NCBI GenBank assembly: GCA_018901125.1
Contig: JAHIFE010000201.1
Span: 1 to 46,795 of the forward strand
From: Pseudomonadota bacterium
Lineage (GTDB): Bacteria; Desulfobacterota; Desulfobacteria; Desulfobacterales; RPRI01
Direction: 5' to 3'
DNA length: 46,795 nt
Below are positions 4,489-16,638 of the stretch, piece by piece (the first letter of the stretch is position 1; every line of letters starts with the position of its first letter). Made by a program: the position numbers and the translations under genes. The notes beneath the pieces are model-generated. The model saw only the letters and a program-made list of their open reading frames with translations. It ran no database searches and was not told the DNA's origin.

Positions 4489-4827
4489 AAGTTATCCGGA
4501 ATATCAGCCTGTCTTTCCAGCTTAAACAGCAAAAAGTCAAGCATGCAAAATTTCTTGGCGTCATGACAACAGCTAATCTTATGTCAAATAAATGGCACTT
4601 ATCCTTTTTAGAATATAACAGGAAATTGGCATTGAGAGTCGTAATAAGCTGTAATTTATATATATAGGCTAAATAATATGCCAGTGCAGAATATTAGCTA
4701 AAAGAAATTAATAAATATTATAATGTGGTCCATTTTTTGCTTATTTATCATGCTTGAGAAGCATTAGCACCCCCTTTGTATAACCCCATTTCAAATATTT
4801 ATAGTTAAATATTAGGAGGAATAATAA
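4489..4827. other. intergenic region, no gene seen
   Basis: A/T-rich, 339 bp. No convincing ORF with a ribosome site. It must contain the promoter of the REC-SBP-CheW gene. TATAAT occurs near 4721, and TTGAGA near 4753 lies 19 nt from TATAAC, neither with good spacing. A strong AGGAGG precedes the ATG at 4828. Confidence 0.4.
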
Positions 4828-6801
4828 ATGGCAGTTGATCCGAAGATAAAGATTTTGCTCGTGGAAGATGCGGCCACTATGCGTAAAATGGAAGTCAAAA
4901 TACTTAAACAATTAAGTTTTGAAAATATACTTGAAGCAGTAGATGGTGATGATGCTATTCATAAAATCGAGTCGGAGAAAAATATTCAACTAATTATCAG
5001 TGACTGGGCAATGCCTAATAAAGATGGTTATGAGCTGCTTAGATGGTTAAGAGAACATGAGAGCTATAATAATATTCCCATGATCATGGCAACCGGACAG
5101 GGTGATAAGGAATATGTTGAAAAAGCAATCCAGGGTGGTGCTAACGGAGTAGTGGCAAAGCCTTTCACGCCTGAAGATCTTAAAGCTCAGATCGATAAAG
5201 CCTTTGGAATTGATCAGAAAAAGCCTAAAAAGGCCGACAGCGGGATAAAGGTAGATAAAGAAGGAAAGGTTCTATTAAAAATCGCTCACATTCAGATAAC
5301 CGACCACCTTACTCTTGGCGTTATGAAACATATGCTGGAAACAGGTAAAAAAAATGCTGATCATTTCAAGCTTGAAACTTTGTGTATGCCCGGCTGGAAC
5401 CCTGTTCAGGCGGCACTTGAAAATGATGATGTTGATGCTGCTTTTATTCTTGCGCCGATAGCAATGGATTTGTTTAACTATGGAATACCAATCAAGCTTG
5501 TCATGTTCGCCCATCGCAATGGCAGTATATTTGTACGCAGCAAATCAAAAAATTACCGCAAACCGTATCAACAGTTTTTTAAGCATAAAACGTTTTTCAT
5601 CCCTCATAAAATGTCTGTTCATAATATGTTATCCCATATATATTTTACACAGATGGGCTTAAAGCCAGGGATTCCGGGCAAAGAAGCGGTTAATGTTTTG
5701 TTTGATGTTGTGCCTCCTGTAAAAATGCCTGAATTTTTAGGAGAAAACCCTGAAAGTTGCGGCTTTATGGTTGCCGAACCAATCGGATCCAGAGCCATTT
5801 CCGCCGGCATAGCTGAAAAGCAATTTGTTTCCAGCGAAATCTGGGAAAACCATCCCTGCTGTGTTGCTGTATTCAGAAATGAGTTCATAGACAAACACCC
5901 TGATGCTGTTCAGGAATTCTGCAATATACTTACCGAAGCGGGCCGATTTATTGGAGAAAACCCTGATGAAGCATCAAAAATAGCTGTTTCCTTTCTAGAC
6001 CCTGAAGGGCAACTGGGTTTACAGCAACACCTTTTAAGGAGTGTATTAACTGATCCGAAAGGGATAAAAACCGATAATCTTTATCCGGTCGTAGAAGATC
6101 TTGAAACCATTCAGACTTATATGACCAATAACATGAATATAGGACGCATGATAGACCTTAACGCTTTTGTCGACAAGAGATTTGCTGATATATCCTATAA
6201 AGATGCTCCCGACAGCATACGTTCGGCATCTCCTGTAAAACAAATAAAAAGCGTAAACGAATCAAGTGATGCCGGCAATGAACCTGGGAAAATAAAAGGC
6301 AAAACACAAACTGCTGTCGATATTAATGTAAGGGCATCCCGTGAAGGCAAATACTTAAGTTTTGGTATATCGGATGAAAAATATGGTTTGGGAATACTTG
6401 ATGTCAGGGAAATTATAGGAATGATACCTATTCGTCCAATGCTACAAATGCCTGAATTTATAAAAGGGGTTGTCAATTTAAGAGGAAAAATTATTCCCGT
6501 CATAGATATGCGATTGAAATTCGGAATGGAACCACTAGATTATAATGACCGAACCTGCATAATAGTGGTGGAAGTCTCAGGGCTTTCAGGCTCTACTCTC
6601 ATGGGCCTGGTTGTAGATACTGTCTGGGAAGTTTCGGATATCAAGGAAGAGGAAACGGAAGACTGTCCCCATTTCGGTTCAAGCATTAACACCAATTACA
6701 TCCTTGGAATCGCAAAAACGAAAGAAGGAATTACTATGCTTCTGGATATTGATAAAATACTTCAGGTTGATGATGTTGTGCAATTAGCCGAGGTTGCATA
6801 A
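4828..6801 (+). CDS. REC - solute-binding - CheW three-domain fusion protein
   Basis: This 657-residue protein joins three domains. Residues 6-125 are a CheY-like receiver with acidic pair Glu13/Asp14, phospho-acceptor Asp59 (LIISDW), Thr89 and Lys111. Residues ~148-455 resemble NrtA/CmpA/SsuA-type ABC solute-binding proteins (NMT1-like): KIAHIQITDHLTLG, DVDAAFILAP, later VFRNEFIDKHPDAVQEF. Residues ~507-650 are CheW (YLSFGISDEKYGLGILDVRE, FIKGVVNLRGKIIPVIDMR). There is no signal peptide or membrane segment, so the binding domain would act in the cytoplasm. I infer a chemoreceptor-array adaptor related in logic to CheV (CheW-REC) that also reads a small internal ligand. AGGAGG lies 7 nt before the ATG. 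No cheA or receptor gene is near. A MITE follows after 13 nt. Confidence 0.85.
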   Translation: MAVDPKIKILLVEDAATMRKMEVKILKQLSFENILEAVDGDDAIHKIESEKNIQLIISDWAMPNKDGYELLRWLREHESYNNIPMIMATGQGDKEYVEKAIQGGANGVVAKPFTPEDLKAQIDKAFGIDQKKPKKADSGIKVDKEGKVLLKIAHIQITDHLTLGVMKHMLETGKKNADHFKLETLCMPGWNPVQAALENDDVDAAFILAPIAMDLFNYGIPIKLVMFAHRNGSIFVRSKSKNYRKPYQQFFKHKTFFIPHKMSVHNMLSHIYFTQMGLKPGIPGKEAVNVLFDVVPPVKMPEFLGENPESCGFMVAEPIGSRAISAGIAEKQFVSSEIWENHPCCVAVFRNEFIDKHPDAVQEFCNILTEAGRFIGENPDEASKIAVSFLDPEGQLGLQQHLLRSVLTDPKGIKTDNLYPVVEDLETIQTYMTNNMNIGRMIDLNAFVDKRFADISYKDAPDSIRSASPVKQIKSVNESSDAGNEPGKIKGKTQTAVDINVRASREGKYLSFGISDEKYGLGILDVREIIGMIPIRPMLQMPEFIKGVVNLRGKIIPVIDMRLKFGMEPLDYNDRTCIIVVEVSGLSGSTLMGLVVDTVWEVSDIKEEETEDCPHFGSSINTNYILGIAKTKEGITMLLDIDKILQVDDVVQLAEVA

Positions 6802-9215: not shown

Positions 9216-10100
9216 TTATTGTTTTTGTCTGAGACGGCTTATCAGGTTATCAAGATCTTCGTTACTGTAAAATTCGATCTCTATTTTTCCTCTTTTACCC
9301 TGACGTTTAATTGCAATTTTTGTTCCAAAATGGCTGGAAAGTTCATCTTCAAGACTCAAATAATAGATATCCTCAGAAGATTTTTCAGTAGTTTTCTTTT
9401 TGCTTTTATCAGTCTTCAAACGCTTTATAAGATTTTCGGTTTCCCTGACAGACAATCCTTTCGATACAACATATCGCCATGCGGCATTCTGCTGGGCAGG
9501 CGTATCGGCTCCAAGCAGAGCTCTTGCATGTCCCATGCTGATTTTTCCGTCCGATAAACTCTCTTTAATCTGATAAGGTAATTGACGAAGCCTCAGGATG
9601 TTTGCTACGGCAGGCCTGCTTTTTCCAACACGCCTTGAAGCCTCTTCCTGGGTTAAATCAAATTCGGTCATCAGGCGGTGGTAGGCCTCGGCTTCTTCTA
9701 TCGGGTTTAGATTTTCGCGTTGAATATTTTCAATTATGGAAATTTCGAGCATCTCAGCATCGGAAACATTTTTAACAATAAGCGGAACCTGAGCTAACCC
9801 GGCCATTCTTGCCGCTCTGAGCCTTCTTTCCCCGGCTATTAACTCAAAACCCCCGGAGCTTTTTCGGGCAAGAAGAGGCTGAATAATTCCTTTTTCTTTA
9901 ATTGATTGGGAAAGCTCTTCAAGCTCGTTTTCAGAAAAATGGATCCTGGGCTGGTATTGGTTGGGTATTATAAGTCCAATATCACAAATTATGTGCTTGC
10001 CTGACTCTTGTTCATCGGTATCAATGCCGGGTATAAGAGCACCAAGGCCCTTTCCAAGAGCAATTTTTTTCTTAAATTTTGATTCAGGATCCTTACTCAT
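9216..10100 (-). CDS. parB: chromosome-partitioning protein ParB
   Basis: The 294-residue product has the ParB order: an N-terminal ParA-interacting stretch (KIALGKGLGALIPG), the CTPase/nuclease-like domain with LIAGERRLRAARMAGL and ENIQRENLNPIEEA, the parS-reading HTH (DLTQEEASRRVGKSRPAVANILRL), and a C-terminal dimerisation domain after a basic linker. It loads on parS as a CTP-dependent clamp. The gene lies 16 nt after parA. No parS-like GTTCCACGTGGAAC palindrome was seen in the window. Confidence 0.95.
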   Translation of the reverse strand: MSKDPESKFKKKIALGKGLGALIPGIDTDEQESGKHIICDIGLIIPNQYQPRIHFSENELEELSQSIKEKGIIQPLLARKSSGGFELIAGERRLRAARMAGLAQVPLIVKNVSDAEMLEISIIENIQRENLNPIEEAEAYHRLMTEFDLTQEEASRRVGKSRPAVANILRLRQLPYQIKESLSDGKISMGHARALLGADTPAQQNAAWRYVVSKGLSVRETENLIKRLKTDKSKKKTTEKSSEDIYYLSLEDELSSHFGTKIAIKRQGKRGKIEIEFYSNEDLDNLISRLRQKQ

Positions 10101-10116
10101 CTTTATCTCCCGATAT

Positions 10117-10905
10117 TCAAATGGTAGAAGCGGGGAAACCTTTTCCTGCCATGCTGATTATCTCCATTGCGAGGCTGATATAGCTTTTTGCGCCAATAGA
10201 AGCGGCATCATAAAGCATTATAGGCTTTCCGAAACTCGGCGCTTCTCCAAGCCGGACATTTCTTGGAACTATAGTTTTAAATAAAAGGTTATTAAAATAT
10301 TTTGCTGCATCTTCAGCAACCTGAACAGACAGATTTGTCCTCTTGTCATACATGGTAAGAAGTATCCCCGCAATTTTAAGTTCAGGGTTTAAACTTCGCC
10401 TTATATGTTTTACTGTCTGCAAAAGCTGGCCCAAACCTTCCAGAGCATAAAATTCACATTGGAGCGGAATAAGAAGATAATTTGAAGCCGTAAGAGCATT
10501 AACCGTTAAAAGACTCAATGATGGAGGGCAATCAAGAATTATATATTCAAACATATCAAATGCTTTAGAAAGAAGATTTTTCAAAGCCAATTCCCGGCCG
10601 TCATGCGACATCATTTCCACCTCGAAACCAATAAGTTCGATATTAGATGGAATGGCTTTTAAATATTCAATTTCCGTATCAGCAAGTATACTTTCTAAAT
10701 CCGATTCTCCAAGCATACCATGATATAGATTGCTTTTATTAGCGGTTTTGTCGATACCTAACCCTGTTGTAGCATTACCCTGAGGGTCACAATCAACAAT
10801 AAGCGTCCTTTTCTCCGAAATAGCAAGCGATGCCGCAAGATTAACTGCAGTTGTAGTTTTGCCGACTCCGCCTTTCTGATTAGCGATGCATATAGTATGT
10901 GCCAT
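10117..10905 (-). CDS. parA: chromosome-partitioning ATPase ParA (Soj)
   Basis: The 262-residue product starts MAHTICIANQKGGVGKTTTA with the deviant Walker A box KGGVGKTT. It also contains the Walker A' DCDPQGNATTGLG and the Walker B-like YIILDCPPSLSLLT. The length and the absence of an N-terminal HTH place it with chromosomal Soj-type proteins. It binds DNA nonspecifically as an ATP dimer and is released by ParB. It is the first gene of an apparent five-gene minus-strand operon (parA, parB, NYN, DUF47, pit). Confidence 0.95.
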   Translation of the reverse strand: MAHTICIANQKGGVGKTTTAVNLAASLAISEKRTLIVDCDPQGNATTGLGIDKTANKSNLYHGMLGESDLESILADTEIEYLKAIPSNIELIGFEVEMMSHDGRELALKNLLSKAFDMFEYIILDCPPSLSLLTVNALTASNYLLIPLQCEFYALEGLGQLLQTVKHIRRSLNPELKIAGILLTMYDKRTNLSVQVAEDAAKYFNNLLFKTIVPRNVRLGEAPSFGKPIMLYDAASIGAKSYISLAMEIISMAGKGFPASTI

Positions 10906-11391: not shown

Positions 11392-12309
11392 ATGAAAAGC
11401 CAGATATTAAATATTTTACGTTCAGATAATAAAATTGTCTCCGGTGAAGAGTTAAGTGCAGCACTGAAAGTATCAAGGGTTTCTGTCTGGAAACACATTC
11501 AATCACTTCAGGGATCAGGATACAGTATTGTTGCAGGCCCCAAAGGCTACAGGCTTGATAACTCTCCCGATGCTCTTTTTGCCTGGGAGTTTCCGGAAAG
11601 AGAATCCAGCATCCACTATTTTACCGAAACATCTTCAACCATGGATGCAGCAAGAGATCTGGCGCGTAAAGGTTGTCCGCACTATACCATAGTAATTGCC
11701 GGGCGCCAGAAAAAAGGGCGTGGACGCTTAAGCCGCGTATGGCTTTCTTCAGAAGGCGGTCTTTATTTCACATTAGTTCTCAGGCCTGATATCCCGTCGG
11801 CACATGCTTCCCGTATAACCTTTCTTGCATCTGTGGTGCTGGCAGAGACAATACGAAAATTATATAACATTGATGCCAAAGTTAAATGGCCAAATGATAT
11901 ACTTGTTGGAGGGAAAAAAATTTCGGGTATGCTTTCCGAAATGGAAGCAGAAGCAGATATGGTTTCTTTTATAAACATCGGTATAGGCATTAATCTAAAC
12001 AATGATCCTACAGCTAAAGAACCGGGAGCCACTTCGCTGAAAAAATTGAAAGGTAAGGAATTTTTGCGAAAAGAACTGCTTTCTGTATTTCTGGATGAAT
12101 TTGAAAAACGGCTGGATACAAAATCTTTTGATGATGTTATCTCAAAGTGGAAACAATATACAATGACTTTGAATCAGCCTGTTAAAATCGTAACAACCCG
12201 TGATACCTACGAAGGAATTGCCGTGGATGTTGATGAAAACGGAGCTTTGATATTAAAACTTGAAAACGGCACGTTACAAAAGGTGGTGTGCGGAGACTGC
12301 TTTCAATAA
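11392..12309 (+). CDS. birA: BirA: biotin-protein ligase and putative repressor
   Basis: BirA makes biotinyl-AMP and transfers biotin to a carboxylase/decarboxylase lysine. The 305-residue product has the N-terminal winged HTH (residues ~1-60, VSGEELSAALKVSRVSVWKH). The catalytic core follows, with KKGRGRLSRVWLSSEGGLYF and KWPNDILVGGKKISGML, and a C-terminal SH3-like domain. Presence of the HTH makes it a group II enzyme that can repress bio genes. Heading the bio operon, it probably regulates it. The start has no strong ribosome site. It is 14 nt from bioA. Confidence 0.95.
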   Translation: MKSQILNILRSDNKIVSGEELSAALKVSRVSVWKHIQSLQGSGYSIVAGPKGYRLDNSPDALFAWEFPERESSIHYFTETSSTMDAARDLARKGCPHYTIVIAGRQKKGRGRLSRVWLSSEGGLYFTLVLRPDIPSAHASRITFLASVVLAETIRKLYNIDAKVKWPNDILVGGKKISGMLSEMEAEADMVSFINIGIGINLNNDPTAKEPGATSLKKLKGKEFLRKELLSVFLDEFEKRLDTKSFDDVISKWKQYTMTLNQPVKIVTTRDTYEGIAVDVDENGALILKLENGTLQKVVCGDCFQ

Positions 12310-12323
12310 TATGGTGATTTATA

Positions 12324-13688
12324 ATGAATAATATAAATTTATTAAACAAATCAGAACTGCTTGAAAATGATAAGAATCATCTTTGGCATCCCTTTACTCA
12401 GATGAAAGAATGGGCGCAAACCGAACCTCTCATAATAGTTGAAGGTGAAGGAAATTATTTAATCGACATAGACGGAAACCGATATTTAGATGGGGTGTCT
12501 TCTCTCTGGGCTAATATTCATGGGCATAAGCGCAAAGAAATCAATCAGGCTATTTCCGATCAGCTTCAAAAAATTTCTCACACAACACTTCTGGGGCTTA
12601 CACATCCCAATGCAATTACTCTGGCGCAAAATATTTCACAGATCGCACCCGGTAATCTCAAATGGGTGTTTTATTCGGAAAGTGGTTCAACCGCAGTTGA
12701 AATTGCCCTGAAAATGGCTTTTCAATATTGGCAAAATTCAGGAAAAATTAAAAAAAACGGGTTTGTTTGTCTCGGAGAAGGATATCATGGCGATACTATA
12801 GGTGCAGTCAGTGTCGGAGGAATTGATCTTTTTCACAACATTTATTCACCGTTGCTTTTTAAATCCTATAAAGTGCCATCTCCGTATTTATACTGTAAAA
12901 AGCACAATATCCCGCTTGATAACGGCGCAGAGTTTTGTGCGGATGAAGTAAAAAAACTACTTGAAAAATATCATGAAAATATTGCTGCATTTATCATAGA
13001 ACCGCTCATTCAGGGCGCAGGCGGCATGCTCCCTTTCCCTCCCGGTTACCTTAAAAAAGTAAGACAATATTGTAGTCAATATGGTGTACTGCTTATTGCA
13101 GATGAAGTAGCGGTTGGCTTCGGACATACAGGCACAATGTTTGCCTGTGAAAAGGAAAATGTAGAACCTGATATTCTTTGTCTTGGAAAAGGATTAACCG
13201 GAGGATATCTTCCTCTTTCAGCCACACTTGCTTCCGATAAAATATTCAATGCTTTCTGGAGTGATTATGATCAGCTTAACAGCTTTTTCCATGGTCACAC
13301 ATTCACCGGAAATCCTCTGGCCTGTGCCGCAGCACTAGCAAGTCTTGATCTTTTTAAAAAAGATCAAACCCTAAAAAATTTACCGGCTAAAATAAATACA
13401 CTGAAAGAAGGGCTGGATGCGCTTTTTAAACTTGATTTTGTGGGCGATGTGCGCCAGTGCGGTCTTATGGCCGGGGTGGAAATTTTTGAAGATAAAAGCA
13501 GGCAAACCCCATTCCCGTTAAAAAGAAGAACAGGGCATAATATCTGTTTGGATGTAAGAAATCATGGTCTTATCTTAAGAAATCTTGGGGACGTAATCGT
13601 TTTTATGCCGCCATTATCAATAACCTGCGATGAAATCACACATATGATCGAATCGGTTGAAAAATCCATCCGTAAAATCTGCAAATGA
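12324..13688 (+). CDS. bioA: adenosylmethionine-8-amino-7-oxononanoate aminotransferase
   Basis: BioA converts KAPA to DAPA with SAM (or lysine) as amino donor, using PLP. The 454-residue product carries the family opening LWHPFTQMKEW, the GYHGDTIGA segment, IADEVAVGFGHTG for the PLP-binding Asp, and CLGKGLTGGYLPLSA with the Schiff-base lysine. A short inserted region around residues 195-215 (YCKKHNIPLDNGAEFC) contains two Cys residues and is typical of the longer bacterial BioA type. The start lies 14 nt after birA; the last codons overlap bioF by 4 nt. Confidence 0.95.
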   Translation: MNNINLLNKSELLENDKNHLWHPFTQMKEWAQTEPLIIVEGEGNYLIDIDGNRYLDGVSSLWANIHGHKRKEINQAISDQLQKISHTTLLGLTHPNAITLAQNISQIAPGNLKWVFYSESGSTAVEIALKMAFQYWQNSGKIKKNGFVCLGEGYHGDTIGAVSVGGIDLFHNIYSPLLFKSYKVPSPYLYCKKHNIPLDNGAEFCADEVKKLLEKYHENIAAFIIEPLIQGAGGMLPFPPGYLKKVRQYCSQYGVLLIADEVAVGFGHTGTMFACEKENVEPDILCLGKGLTGGYLPLSATLASDKIFNAFWSDYDQLNSFFHGHTFTGNPLACAAALASLDLFKKDQTLKNLPAKINTLKEGLDALFKLDFVGDVRQCGLMAGVEIFEDKSRQTPFPLKRRTGHNICLDVRNHGLILRNLGDVIVFMPPLSITCDEITHMIESVEKSIRKICK

Positions 13689-14884
13689 ACTTTTCAGATA
13701 AAAATATTTACCCTGATTCATGGGCAAGCTTTATGTCGGAGTCACTAAACGATATTAAAGCAAAGGGTCTTTTCAGAAAACTTCGGGTCTTAGATAATTC
13801 TGTTTCCACAAGGGTTAAGATCAACAATCGGACTGTTGTGCTTTTTTCCTCCAATGACTACTTAGGACTTGCAAATGATTTACGCATGAAAGAAGCTTCC
13901 GCCAAGGCTGTTTTGTCTTGGGGAACAGGCTCCGGGGCATCACGGCTTATTTCCGGAAATACAACACTATATACAAAGCTTGAAGAAGCGGTTGCCCGCT
14001 TTAAAAAAAGTGAATCCGCTCTTGTTTTTCCAAGCGGTTATAGCGCCAATGCAGGTGTTATTTCAAGTCTTGCACAAGAAGGTGATTTAATATTAAGCGA
14101 TGCCTTAAACCACGCAAGCATTATTGATGCATGCAAACTTACAAAAGCCAAAGTTGTTACATATCCCCATTGCGATGTCGATTTTGTTAAAGATTATCTG
14201 GATAACTCACAAAAGCCAAAAAAAGTACTAGTTGTTACAGATGGCGTATTCAGCATGACAGGAGAACTTGCCCCGATTCCGCAACTCTGCAAAATCTGCA
14301 AACAATATGGGGCACTTCTTATGGTTGATGATGCGCATGGAACAGGGGTAACAGGGCCCGAAGGCAGGGGAACTCTTGATTATTATAATTTAAATGAGCC
14401 GGGAATAGTTCAAGTCGGCACCTTCAGCAAGGCATTAGGTGGCCTTGGAGGTTTTGTTGCCGGCTCAAACCTGCTTATCGATTTTATTATAAATCACGCA
14501 AGATCAATTATCTACTCAACAGCTCTTCCCCCTTCAGTTCTTGCATCAAATTGTGAAGGAATCAGAATTATATCAGAAGACTCATCTTTAAGGATAAAGC
14601 TTTTTGAACTGATAAATCAACTGAGAGACGGCCTTGTGTCCTTAGGATTTCCGGTTTTTCCCGTCCCTATGCCGATTATACCCATAGTTATAGGTGATGT
14701 TTCGGAAACACTTTCTGTCGCTCAGTATCTCTGGGATAAAGGATTTTTCGTTCCGCCAATAAGACCGCCTACAGTGATGCCGGGAGAAAGTTGTCTTAGA
14801 ATAAGTCTTAGTGCTTTAAATACTACAGAAGATATTGATAGACTGTTATGGGCTATTAAAGCATATTATAAAAAAGGAAGTTAG
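13685..14884 (+). CDS. bioF: 8-amino-7-oxononanoate synthase (KAPA synthase)
   Basis: BioF condenses pimeloyl-ACP or -CoA with L-alanine, a PLP-dependent decarboxylative step. The 399-residue product shows the alpha-oxoamine synthase landmarks: SSNDYLGLA, GTGSGASRLISGN, DALNHASI, MVDDAHGTGVTGPEGRG and GTFSKALGGLGGFVAGS with Lys249 as the PLP lysine. The start codon overlaps bioA (ATGA), so the two are coupled. No bioC or bioH was seen, so the pimeloyl precursor is made by genes elsewhere. Confidence 0.96.
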   Translation: MNFSDKNIYPDSWASFMSESLNDIKAKGLFRKLRVLDNSVSTRVKINNRTVVLFSSNDYLGLANDLRMKEASAKAVLSWGTGSGASRLISGNTTLYTKLEEAVARFKKSESALVFPSGYSANAGVISSLAQEGDLILSDALNHASIIDACKLTKAKVVTYPHCDVDFVKDYLDNSQKPKKVLVVTDGVFSMTGELAPIPQLCKICKQYGALLMVDDAHGTGVTGPEGRGTLDYYNLNEPGIVQVGTFSKALGGLGGFVAGSNLLIDFIINHARSIIYSTALPPSVLASNCEGIRIISEDSSLRIKLFELINQLRDGLVSLGFPVFPVPMPIIPIVIGDVSETLSVAQYLWDKGFFVPPIRPPTVMPGESCLRISLSALNTTEDIDRLLWAIKAYYKKGS

Positions 14885-14893
14885 AAAATACAG

Positions 14894-15643
14894 ATGAAAC
14901 AGTTTGAAAAAGGTGTTTTTATAACGGCAACCGATACAGAAGTAGGCAAAACTTTTGTTTCAGCTCTTTTATTAAAGGCTTTGCTTAAACAAAATATTAA
15001 GGCCGGCTATTTTAAGCCGGTAGCAAGCGGATGCCAAGCTGAAAAGGGTTTTCTGGTCTCTGAAGATCTCTTGTATGTGGAAAAATTCACAGGGATTAAA
15101 ATGGAGCATGATCTTCATTGTCCGGTTCGCTATCAAAAACCTTTAGCTCCTGTTATTGCCGCAGAGCTTGAGAAAAAGCCTGTAAATCTGGTAAAAATCA
15201 AAAAAGCTTTTGAACTTTTAAAACAAGAGTATTTTGCACTGATAGTAGAAGGTATTGGCGGTGTGATGGTCCCTTTAAGCAACAATTATCTTGTACTTGA
15301 TCTTATTGCCGAATTCAAACTTCCTGCCCTTATTGTCAGCAGACCATCACTTGGAACCATCAATCATACAATGCTGACAATCAGTGTTTTAAAAAACAGA
15401 GGTATACCCATAGCAGGGTTTCTGACTAATGGCTATAAAGAAGAAAACGATGAGGCGGCTGCCACAAGTCCTCAAATTATAACCGCTTTGAGCCAGGTTC
15501 CTTATCTGGGCCATATTCCCATGTATAATCCCAAAGAAGAGACCCCGGAAGAGTTTATTGAAAAGAAAGCAGTGGTTATTAATAAGATAGCCGGCAATTT
15601 TTCAAACAGTAAAAGTATAAAGCAAAATGGAGACAATTTATGA
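14894..15643 (+). CDS. bioD: dethiobiotin synthetase
   Basis: BioD closes the ureido ring of dethiobiotin from DAPA, CO2 and ATP. The 249-residue product has the P-loop ATDTEVGKTFVSALL at residues 11-25, FKPVASGCQ, the VEGIGGVMVPL strand and a TNG loop (FLTNGYKEE). A ~20-residue extra C-terminal tail (VINKIAGNFSNSKSIKQNGD) is hydrophilic and not obviously part of the fold. The gene overlaps bioB by 4 nt. Confidence 0.95.
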   Translation: MKQFEKGVFITATDTEVGKTFVSALLLKALLKQNIKAGYFKPVASGCQAEKGFLVSEDLLYVEKFTGIKMEHDLHCPVRYQKPLAPVIAAELEKKPVNLVKIKKAFELLKQEYFALIVEGIGGVMVPLSNNYLVLDLIAEFKLPALIVSRPSLGTINHTMLTISVLKNRGIPIAGFLTNGYKEENDEAAATSPQIITALSQVPYLGHIPMYNPKEETPEEFIEKKAVVINKIAGNFSNSKSIKQNGDNL

Positions 15644-16638
15644 ACACACCCAACACTGACTTTGACGAATTTTCCAAAATTTCTCTTTCAGGAAAAATAC
15701 TTTCCCGGGAGCAATGCCGCCAGGTATTAAACTGTCCTGACACAAAAATACTGGCGCTTCTTGATTCGGCCTATACCGTTCGATTCCATTATTTTAAAAA
15801 TATTGTACATGTTCAGTTACTGACAAACGCAAAAAGCGGATTGTGCAAAGAAGATTGCCATTACTGCTCTCAGTCAAGGGTTTCGGAAGCGGATATTACA
15901 AAATATCCTTTAATGGCAAAAGACAAACTTGTGGATGAAGCATTAAAAGCAACAAAATTAAATGCGAAACGTTATTGCATGGCACTTAGCGGGACAGGAC
16001 CATCCGATAGTGAAATTGATGCTCTGTGTGACATTATCAGCACTGTTAAGAAACAATCCGATATATCACTTTGCTGCTCCACAGGGTTTTTAAACATAGA
16101 AAAGGCGAAAAAGCTGAAAGAGGCGGGGCTTGACCGTGTAAATCATAATCTTAACACCAGCAAGCGCTTCCATCCGCAAATGTGTACAACCCATTCATAT
16201 CAGGACAGGCTGAATACAATAGCAATATGCCGTAAAGCAGGACTGGAAGTGTGCTCAGGAGGTATTGTGGGTCAGGGAGAAACAGATGAAGATATTATAG
16301 ATTTGCTTTTAACCTTACGTGAAATAAATGCCGAATCTATTCCCATTAATTTTCTTGTTCCAATAAAAGGAACACCTTTTGAAGATCACACTCAAAATCT
16401 TACTCCCCAACGCTGCCTTAAAATCTTATGTCTTGCCAGATTTCTTAACCCGGATAAGGAAATACGTGCAGCAGGCGGGCGTGAATACCACCTTCGCACA
16501 TTACAGCCACTTGCTTTATATGCAGCCAATTCAATATTTGTTGCAGGATATCTTACTACTTCAGGACAAACTGCCAGGGAAGCAAAAGTCATGATAGATG
16601 ATCTGGGCTTTGACAGTGAAATAGAGGCATCGGTTTAA
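15640..16638 (+). CDS. bioB: biotin synthase (radical SAM)
   Basis: BioB inserts sulfur into dethiobiotin using two iron-sulfur clusters. The 332-residue product carries the radical-SAM triad Cys69/Cys73/Cys76 (CKEDCHYC), the [2Fe-2S] ligands expected in CMALSGTG and in SLCCSTG, and the Arg in AAGGREYH. It is the last gene of the operon; its stop lies only 3 nt from the convergent NtrC-like gene, and no hairpin separates them, so antisense read-through is likely. Confidence 0.96.
   Translation: MNTPNTDFDEFSKISLSGKILSREQCRQVLNCPDTKILALLDSAYTVRFHYFKNIVHVQLLTNAKSGLCKEDCHYCSQSRVSEADITKYPLMAKDKLVDEALKATKLNAKRYCMALSGTGPSDSEIDALCDIISTVKKQSDISLCCSTGFLNIEKAKKLKEAGLDRVNHNLNTSKRFHPQMCTTHSYQDRLNTIAICRKAGLEVCSGGIVGQGETDEDIIDLLLTLREINAESIPINFLVPIKGTPFEDHTQNLTPQRCLKILCLARFLNPDKEIRAAGGREYHLRTLQPLALYAANSIFVAGYLTTSGQTAREAKVMIDDLGFDSEIEASV

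Follow-up and report, generated by a model that had tools for sequence, protein, structure and literature searches.

A receiver, an NrtA-type solute-binding domain and CheW in one chain: a candidate cytoplasmic solute-reading chemotaxis adaptor

In a 46,795-nucleotide stretch of bacterial DNA (the window), we find a gene whose 657-residue product joins a CheY-like receiver, a solute-binding domain (SBP) and a CheW domain in a single chain. From sequence and structural models we hold, with moderate confidence, that the protein is a CheV-like phosphorylatable adaptor that would read a cytoplasmic solute into CheA, and that the cell probably steers by the internal level of a small molecule through it. 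The fusion itself is confirmed as real. Its open reading frame begins with ATG and contains no internal stop, and the three domains score far above their Pfam cut-offs (Response_reg, 88.9 bits against 30.2; NMT1_2, PF13379, 94.8 against 24.7; CheW, 113.8 against 23.5), with no further domain in the protein up to E 1. Because the receiver lies directly at the N terminus, a signal peptide is absent. The earlier note had proposed three such domains in one protein without a signal peptide, in an order the reverse of that in CheV, and both statements hold. The features are collected in Table 1.

Table 1. Features of the gene and its product. Coordinates refer to the 46,795-nt window and residue numbers to the 657-residue product of 4828–6801.
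Feature	Coordinates	Strand	Basis
AGGAGG ribosome-binding site	4814..4819	+	8 bases 5' of ATG; sequence
Whole gene, receiver-SBP-CheW, 657 aa	4828..6801	+	ORF, Pfam, relatives in same frame
Receiver domain, CheY-like, residues 9-122	4852..5193	+	Pfam, conservation, CheY fold match
D59, predicted phosphorylation site	5002..5004	+	Conservation
Solute-binding domain (SBP), residues 145-460	5260..6207	+	Pfam NMT1_2 144-386, AlphaFold2, fold search
W190, invariant, aligned with conserved Trp of NrtC/CmpC	5395..5397	+	Alignment, conservation
H265, invariant, aligned with NrtA His196	5620..5622	+	Alignment, conservation
HPCC motif, residues 342-345	5851..5862	+	C345 aligned with NrtA Lys269
Flexible linker, residues 461-503	6208..6336	+	pLDDT <50 at 475-503; fast-evolving
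CheW domain, residues 508-646	6349..6765	+	Pfam, conservation

The architecture is conserved across many sediment bacteria. A pattern scan of named genomes returned 226 relatives, and 73 of the best 80 of these carry receiver, SBP and CheW in a single frame, which rules out a chimera as well as the frame error that the earlier note had listed among the findings that would refute it. Among the same best 80, CheW is missing in L145, L152, L170, L173 and L174, L143 lacks an in-frame receiver and L163 is split over two frames; the CheW-fusion locus L112 is cut by a contig end. The full architecture occurs in at least 17 of 96 whole genomes of relatives (16 as full-length rows, and the copy in G043, included in the count, as two pieces of one 731-residue frame), and 8 further genomes hold receiver-SBP proteins only, among the matches listed. 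In an even draw of the phylum, the SBP module was found at E 1e-60 or better in 20 of 395 genomes, including the window's own. Thermodesulfobacteriota, Ignavibacteriota and other phyla are represented. The named hosts include Desulfonema magnum (L140), two Desulfacinum species and a Desulfurivibrio isolate, and metagenome-assembled genomes, whose labels may be wrong, add Ignavibacteria, Melioribacter, Chlorobiota, KSB1, Latescibacterota, Candidatus Magnetocorallium (Nitrospirota), Anaerolineae and Thiotrichales. A viral or mobile origin was rejected on one scan of viral_contigs with a single SBP sequence, reaching close relatives only, in which no relative was found.

Purifying selection on all three domains is strong. 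In comparison with two congeners, dN/dS was 0.05–0.09 in each of the receiver, SBP and CheW domains, whereas the linker gave 0.47–0.91; in comparison with L004, which is more distant, synonymous sites proved saturated. Conservation was assessed in an alignment of 61 rows, 56 of them with CheW. Over those 56, the mean share of the commonest residue was highest in the SBP (71%), followed by the receiver (65%) and CheW (61%); the three domains have 50 of 316, 19 of 122 and 9 of 142 invariant positions, respectively. The statement that the SBP is the most conserved domain thus holds for the family mean only, since its invariant share equals that of the receiver (16% each); in one of the two congener pairs, moreover, dN of the SBP exceeded that of both CheW and the receiver.

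Both signalling domains retain the signature residues of their families. CheY-like receivers are marked by an acidic pair, an aspartate, a threonine or serine and a lysine, and here the acidic pair E13/D14 is accompanied by D59, T89 and K111; D14, D59, T89 and K111 are present in all 61 rows, and residue 13 is acidic throughout (Glu in 57, Asp in 4). In the whole-protein model the receiver matches CheY with Z 23–24. In the CheW domain, E528 and R552, which we take to be the equivalents of the E. coli CheW salt-bridge pair E38–R62, do not vary over the 56 rows with CheW. By its profile score and this pair, the domain is a predicted coupling module that would bind CheA and receptors.

AlphaFold2 models the whole protein with a pLDDT of 87.5 (61 aligned sequences), with low confidence at residues 475–503, and the SBP alone with 93.6 (31 sequences). 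The best fold match of the isolated SBP is 3un6 (Z 37.5, 2.0 Å over 289 residues), followed by NrtA 2g29 (Z 35.3, 2.0 Å, 299 residues), CmpA 2i48 (Z 35.0, 1.9 Å, 298 residues) and CmpC/NrtC chains and domains (Z 32.6–34.1); with the whole-protein model, 3un6 tied with NrtA and CmpA. These matches (Z 32.6–37.5) and the profile score place the domain among NMT1_2 solute-binding proteins. The structure prediction that the earlier note had called for gives an SBP fold with high confidence, and the pocket was judged by alignment.

W190, H265, H342, C344 and C345 are invariant in the SBP (61 rows). In a phmmer alignment, H265 falls in the column of NrtA His196 and C345 in that of NrtA Lys269; these two NrtA residues we take to be nitrate-binding, and a sequence offset of 29 fits the alignment. 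The tryptophan of CmpC and NrtC aligns with W190, and both have a lysine in the C345 column. Nitrate, among the ligands suggested in the earlier note, is improbable, as Lys269 is replaced by an invariant cysteine (61 of 61 rows), although the His196 column is kept, and we disfavour a nitrate sensor on this ground. Bicarbonate, another of its suggestions, appears only weakly disfavoured, by the lysine of CmpC in the same column. The SBP scores 54 bits against the curated SsuA-family cut-off of 163.5 (TIGR01728) and 23.1 bits against the SaoX cut-off of 300 (NF040735). Membership tests, including those on known systems considered below, led us to reject filing the protein under SsuA, SaoX, NasS, CheV or CheWS.

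In the mechanism that we propose, the CheW domain would dock into the receptor/CheA array, the cytoplasmic NrtA-type domain would close on a small solute, and the resulting change would reach CheA activity through the flexible linker. CheA may phosphorylate the receiver at D59 and CheX may return it to its resting state, a CheV-like feedback suggested by the intact receiver residues and by CheX genes beside the gene in L127, L091 and L172.

The gene neighbourhoods bear on this proposal in both directions. With the window excluded, a che gene or receptor lies nearby in 11 of 83 CheW-fusion loci. The orders are CheA-CheR-gene-CheX in L127, receiver-CheA-DUF169-gene in L082, CheD-gene-DUF169 in L084 and gene-CheX-solo SBP in L091 and L172 (all by Pfam); CheA-CheR-gene in L133 (CheR by Pfam, CheA by similarity only); and gene-receiver-CheA in L074 (CheA by Pfam, receiver by eye). 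By similarity only, two MCPs precede the gene in L141, a CheD-like gene in L083 and a CheW in L146 lie farther off or on the opposite strand, and L055 has a weak CheX match nearby. This linkage recurs in several parts of the SBP tree. Against the adaptor reading, however, 72 of the 83 loci have no che gene in the stretch covered, some of these stretches ending at contig ends, and in the window the gene is solitary, with a PNPOx-like gene upstream; downstream, on the opposite strand, lie a PHO4 phosphate transporter and a PhoU_div gene.

The window's genome contains eight CheW-domain and six MCP matches. The closest relative there of the fused CheW is a CheW on contig C14 (57% identical), which adjoins an MCP and CheR. 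The end of C14 carries part of a CheA, and the start of C45 a CheA C terminus; at 43% and 46% identity, respectively, they are the closest match in this genome to the CheA of L127, and since they match successive parts of it, they are apparently one gene at a contig break. The che cluster of C14/C45 is thus a candidate for the likely partner in this genome, but the CheA proteins of L082 and L074 score higher with the CheA of C209 than with the contig-cut C14 fragment. The two parts of this apparently split CheA lie at L061 10427–12137 and L063 3–524.

The CheW fusion is one output variant of a promiscuous sensory module. Receiver-SBP also occurs free-standing (mostly 457–494 residues) and fused to HATPase_c_2-STAS (RsbW-like), SpoIIE, a CheA core with CheW, or a hybrid histidine kinase. 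In L055 (4263–7880; 1205 residues) two receiver-SBP units stand in tandem ahead of one CheW, and in the hybrid kinase of L045 (521–3703) the SBP is C-terminal in the order receiver-DUF3369-HisKA-HATPase-receiver-SBP, the first receiver being placed by elimination. Related solo SBPs of 306–341 residues, with one further copy cut by a contig end, adjoin free receiver-SBP genes in several genomes; by eye, no signal peptide is apparent at their N terminus. They keep W190, H229, H342, C344 and C345 in 13 of 13 rows, and H260 is tyrosine in all 13. A quick tree of 133 SBP segments (identical segments and those under 270 residues removed; SH-aLRT support only) groups 14 solo SBPs in one clade with support 100. 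Output labels change 11 times on this tree against a shuffled mean of 45.4, CheW being the commonest label (85 of 133, both halves of L055 counted). The label of L039 (SpoIIE) comes from a Pfam match below the cut-off, L047, though cut by a contig end, was counted as free, and L057 and L145 carry extensions. We read this pattern as a CheW-type ancestor rewired several times, on a tree with 44 of 130 inner branches open and the root not settled. The receiver-SBP half would then be a general intracellular solute-sensing module, attached by evolution to other outputs.

A small family of genes lies near free receiver-SBP and solo SBP genes (L071 7471–8256, L054 6380–7228, L094 2414–3142, and also in L067, L072, L073 and L093). 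Its L071 member has no NCBIfam match up to E 0.001 and its L072 member no Pfam match up to E 1e-5.

Other neighbours give hints of what the module might sense. A set of ATPase, exported NMT1_2 protein and permease, an importer of the superfamily to which the SBP belongs, lies 3' of the gene in L140, L081, L085 and L164, and in L086 an ATPase is followed by the contig end. These importer-linked loci (L140, L086, L081, which equals L149, L085 and L164) form one clade with support 99, and in L081, L085 and L140 the exported SBP has a TAT signal by profile. In L054, a similar importer set is flanked by a free receiver-SBP on one side and a more distant SBP gene on the other. The importer as a universal partner was rejected: nearby ABC ATPases at 16 loci were mostly unrelated, leaving the one clade and L054. 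A search of the window's genome for a close homologue of this exported SBP found none, a point against the adaptor reading; the sole other NMT1_2 match there, on contig C210, is weaker and stop-interrupted. This match (L178 5806–6846, genome G000) is interrupted by TGA, for which decay, error or selenocysteine are possible, and by eye the frame beside it looks like an ABC permease.

In L082, L084, L131, L132 and L167, the CheW fusion has as its immediate same-strand neighbour a DUF169 gene of about 290–300 residues, and in L151 and L165 a single gene separates the two. These seven genomes fall in three parts of the tree; L138 and L155 are duplicates. A TusE-like/cysteine desulfurase fusion accompanies DUF169 in L131, L132, L151 and L165. 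At 13 loci of one clade, a two-domain rhodanese-like gene adjoins the CheW fusion or is no more than about 1.4 kb away from it; such a gene is also near the fusion in L159 and, in pieces, in L163. The single DUF169 gene of the window's genome is located elsewhere and is 48% identical to that of L151. Across 96 relatives, at a chosen E cut-off of 1e-40 and with genomes that are not independent, receiver-SBP is present in 10 of 11 DUF169 genomes against 25 of 96 overall, and the CheW fusion in 7 of 11 against 17 of 96, among the matches listed. Counted per family, receiver-SBP occurs in 7 of 8 against 20 of 72 (p 0.0003), likewise among the matches listed. In G072, the lone DUF169 genome without receiver-SBP among these matches, the DUF169 gene is interrupted by a stop.

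Searches with DUF169 gave neither a sequence relative in the PDB up to E 0.1 nor an NCBIfam match up to E 0.001, and the passages of the literature consulted assign it no function. According to passages of PMC4001038, a 'nitrate cluster' of Desulfovibrio holds a DUF169 gene, possibly of another subtype than that beside the CheW fusion; its authors think that its native role lies outside nitrate and hypothesise a leaky thiosulfate transporter. Taken together with the DUF169, TusE-like/cysteine desulfurase and rhodanese neighbours, this hypothesis makes a sulfur compound our best guess for the ligand, and a guess it is. A broader reading, possible but doubtful, is that receiver-SBP is a widespread intracellular module that in bacteria of several phyla serves chemotaxis arrays, CheA, RsbW/SpoIIE partner-switching and hybrid kinases, and that it reads the cytoplasmic level of a sulfur compound on which those same partners act, such as thiosulfate or another sulfur oxyanion.

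The SBP might instead bind no ligand and act as a protein–protein scaffold, which would make the protein a reordered CheV with phosphorylation as its sole input. SBP folds can take other roles, and the importer SBP has no close relative in the window's genome; this reading is nevertheless unlikely in view of the 71% mean share of the commonest residue, the 50 of 316 invariant positions, among them W190, H265 and the HPCC motif, and the retention of most of these residues in the separate solo-SBP clade, the exchange of H260 notwithstanding. Alternatively, the domain may sense redox or a metal through Cys344–Cys345 and histidines rather than a transported solute. All 61 rows share H154, H160, H229, H260, H265, H342, C344 and C345; among solved structures, the closest in sequence, 3un6, is zinc-bound by its title and has the same CC pair; and many hosts of the fusion belong to anaerobic groups. 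The zinc of 3un6 is, however, known from the title, and the linked ABC importer, which brings an exported SBP of its own, speaks for a solute that is transported, so that we consider a redox or metal sensor improbable.

It is also conceivable, though very unlikely in our judgement, that the protein controls another CheA pathway or the importer instead of motility, CheW merely localising it. Sister modules do feed RsbW-STAS and SpoIIE partner-switch outputs, and the many loci without a che gene fit such a role; against it stand the kinship of the fused CheW with the C14 CheW beside an MCP and CheR, and the recurrence of che linkage in several parts of the tree. We retain the solute-reading adaptor as the preferred reading. 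As advanced in the earlier note, it draws support from the cytoplasmic location, the receiver and CheW residues, the conserved SBP and the che genes at 11 of 83 loci, and needs amending in that the fusion is one variant of a wider module.

Several known systems resemble the fusion in part. CheV has an N-terminal CheW domain followed by a C-terminal receiver. It likewise joins CheW to a phosphorylatable receiver, but in the CheW-receiver order and with no ligand-binding domain, whereas here the order is receiver-SBP-CheW, which places the protein outside CheV. CheV figures in PMC12691637, and CheA architectures in PMC10782961/PMC10542144. Passages of PMC10653840 present CheWS of Treponema denticola as the first CheW-fused chemotaxis sensor to be characterised, one that likewise couples CheW to a cytoplasmic ligand-binding domain and reads internal SAM into the array. 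Its sensor, however, is a CheR-like SAM domain, and CheWS as described in those passages has neither receiver nor SBP; our protein shows no CheR-like domain in Pfam up to E 1 and is thus not a CheWS. In the NasS-NasT system, as presented in passages of PMC3795266, a cytoplasmic NrtA-like sensor likewise works with a receiver-containing protein, but these are two separate proteins and the output of NasT is RNA binding. NasS keeps all nitrate residues according to the same passages, whereas here lysine is replaced by cysteine, so that by this criterion the SBP is not a NasS-type nitrate sensor.

The C-terminal regulatory domain of NrtC/CmpC (PDB 8wm7, 9u9z, 9uak and 9uai, by their titles) is also SBP-type, ATPase-side and fused, but to the ABC ATPase of a transporter and not to a component of a signalling array; Pfam finds no ATPase domain in our protein, which sets it apart from these regulated ATPases. 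The best sequence match, 3un6, an ABC solute-binding protein of Staphylococcus aureus, shares the CC pair, but is by its title an import-system component and lacks receiver and CheW. The fusion unites CheWS-like and NasS/NrtC/CmpC-like ideas with a receiver and is a member of neither CheWS nor NasS. The earlier note had named an already well-described architecture as a ground for refutation; no description of receiver-SBP-CheW was found in the literature searched, though Fig. S10 of PMC10653840, which according to passages of that paper presents 30 undescribed CheW architectures, may list it.

In the usual account of chemotaxis, cells sense their surroundings by means of receptors in the membrane. 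If the adaptor reading is correct, the fusion would be another case, after CheWS, of steering by the level of an internal metabolite, in more phyla, and the receiver in the same chain could supply feedback. If the sulfur reading also holds, cells would steer by their internal sulfur state. The swaps of output among chemotaxis, partner-switching and kinase proteins offer a natural series for studying how an SBP drives unrelated outputs, and DUF169 gains a testable partner.

Inspection by eye elsewhere in the window shows, at 11392–16638, a BirA-like gene with an operon for biotin synthesis after it and, just ahead of these, a ParA/ParB-like pair at 9216–10905.
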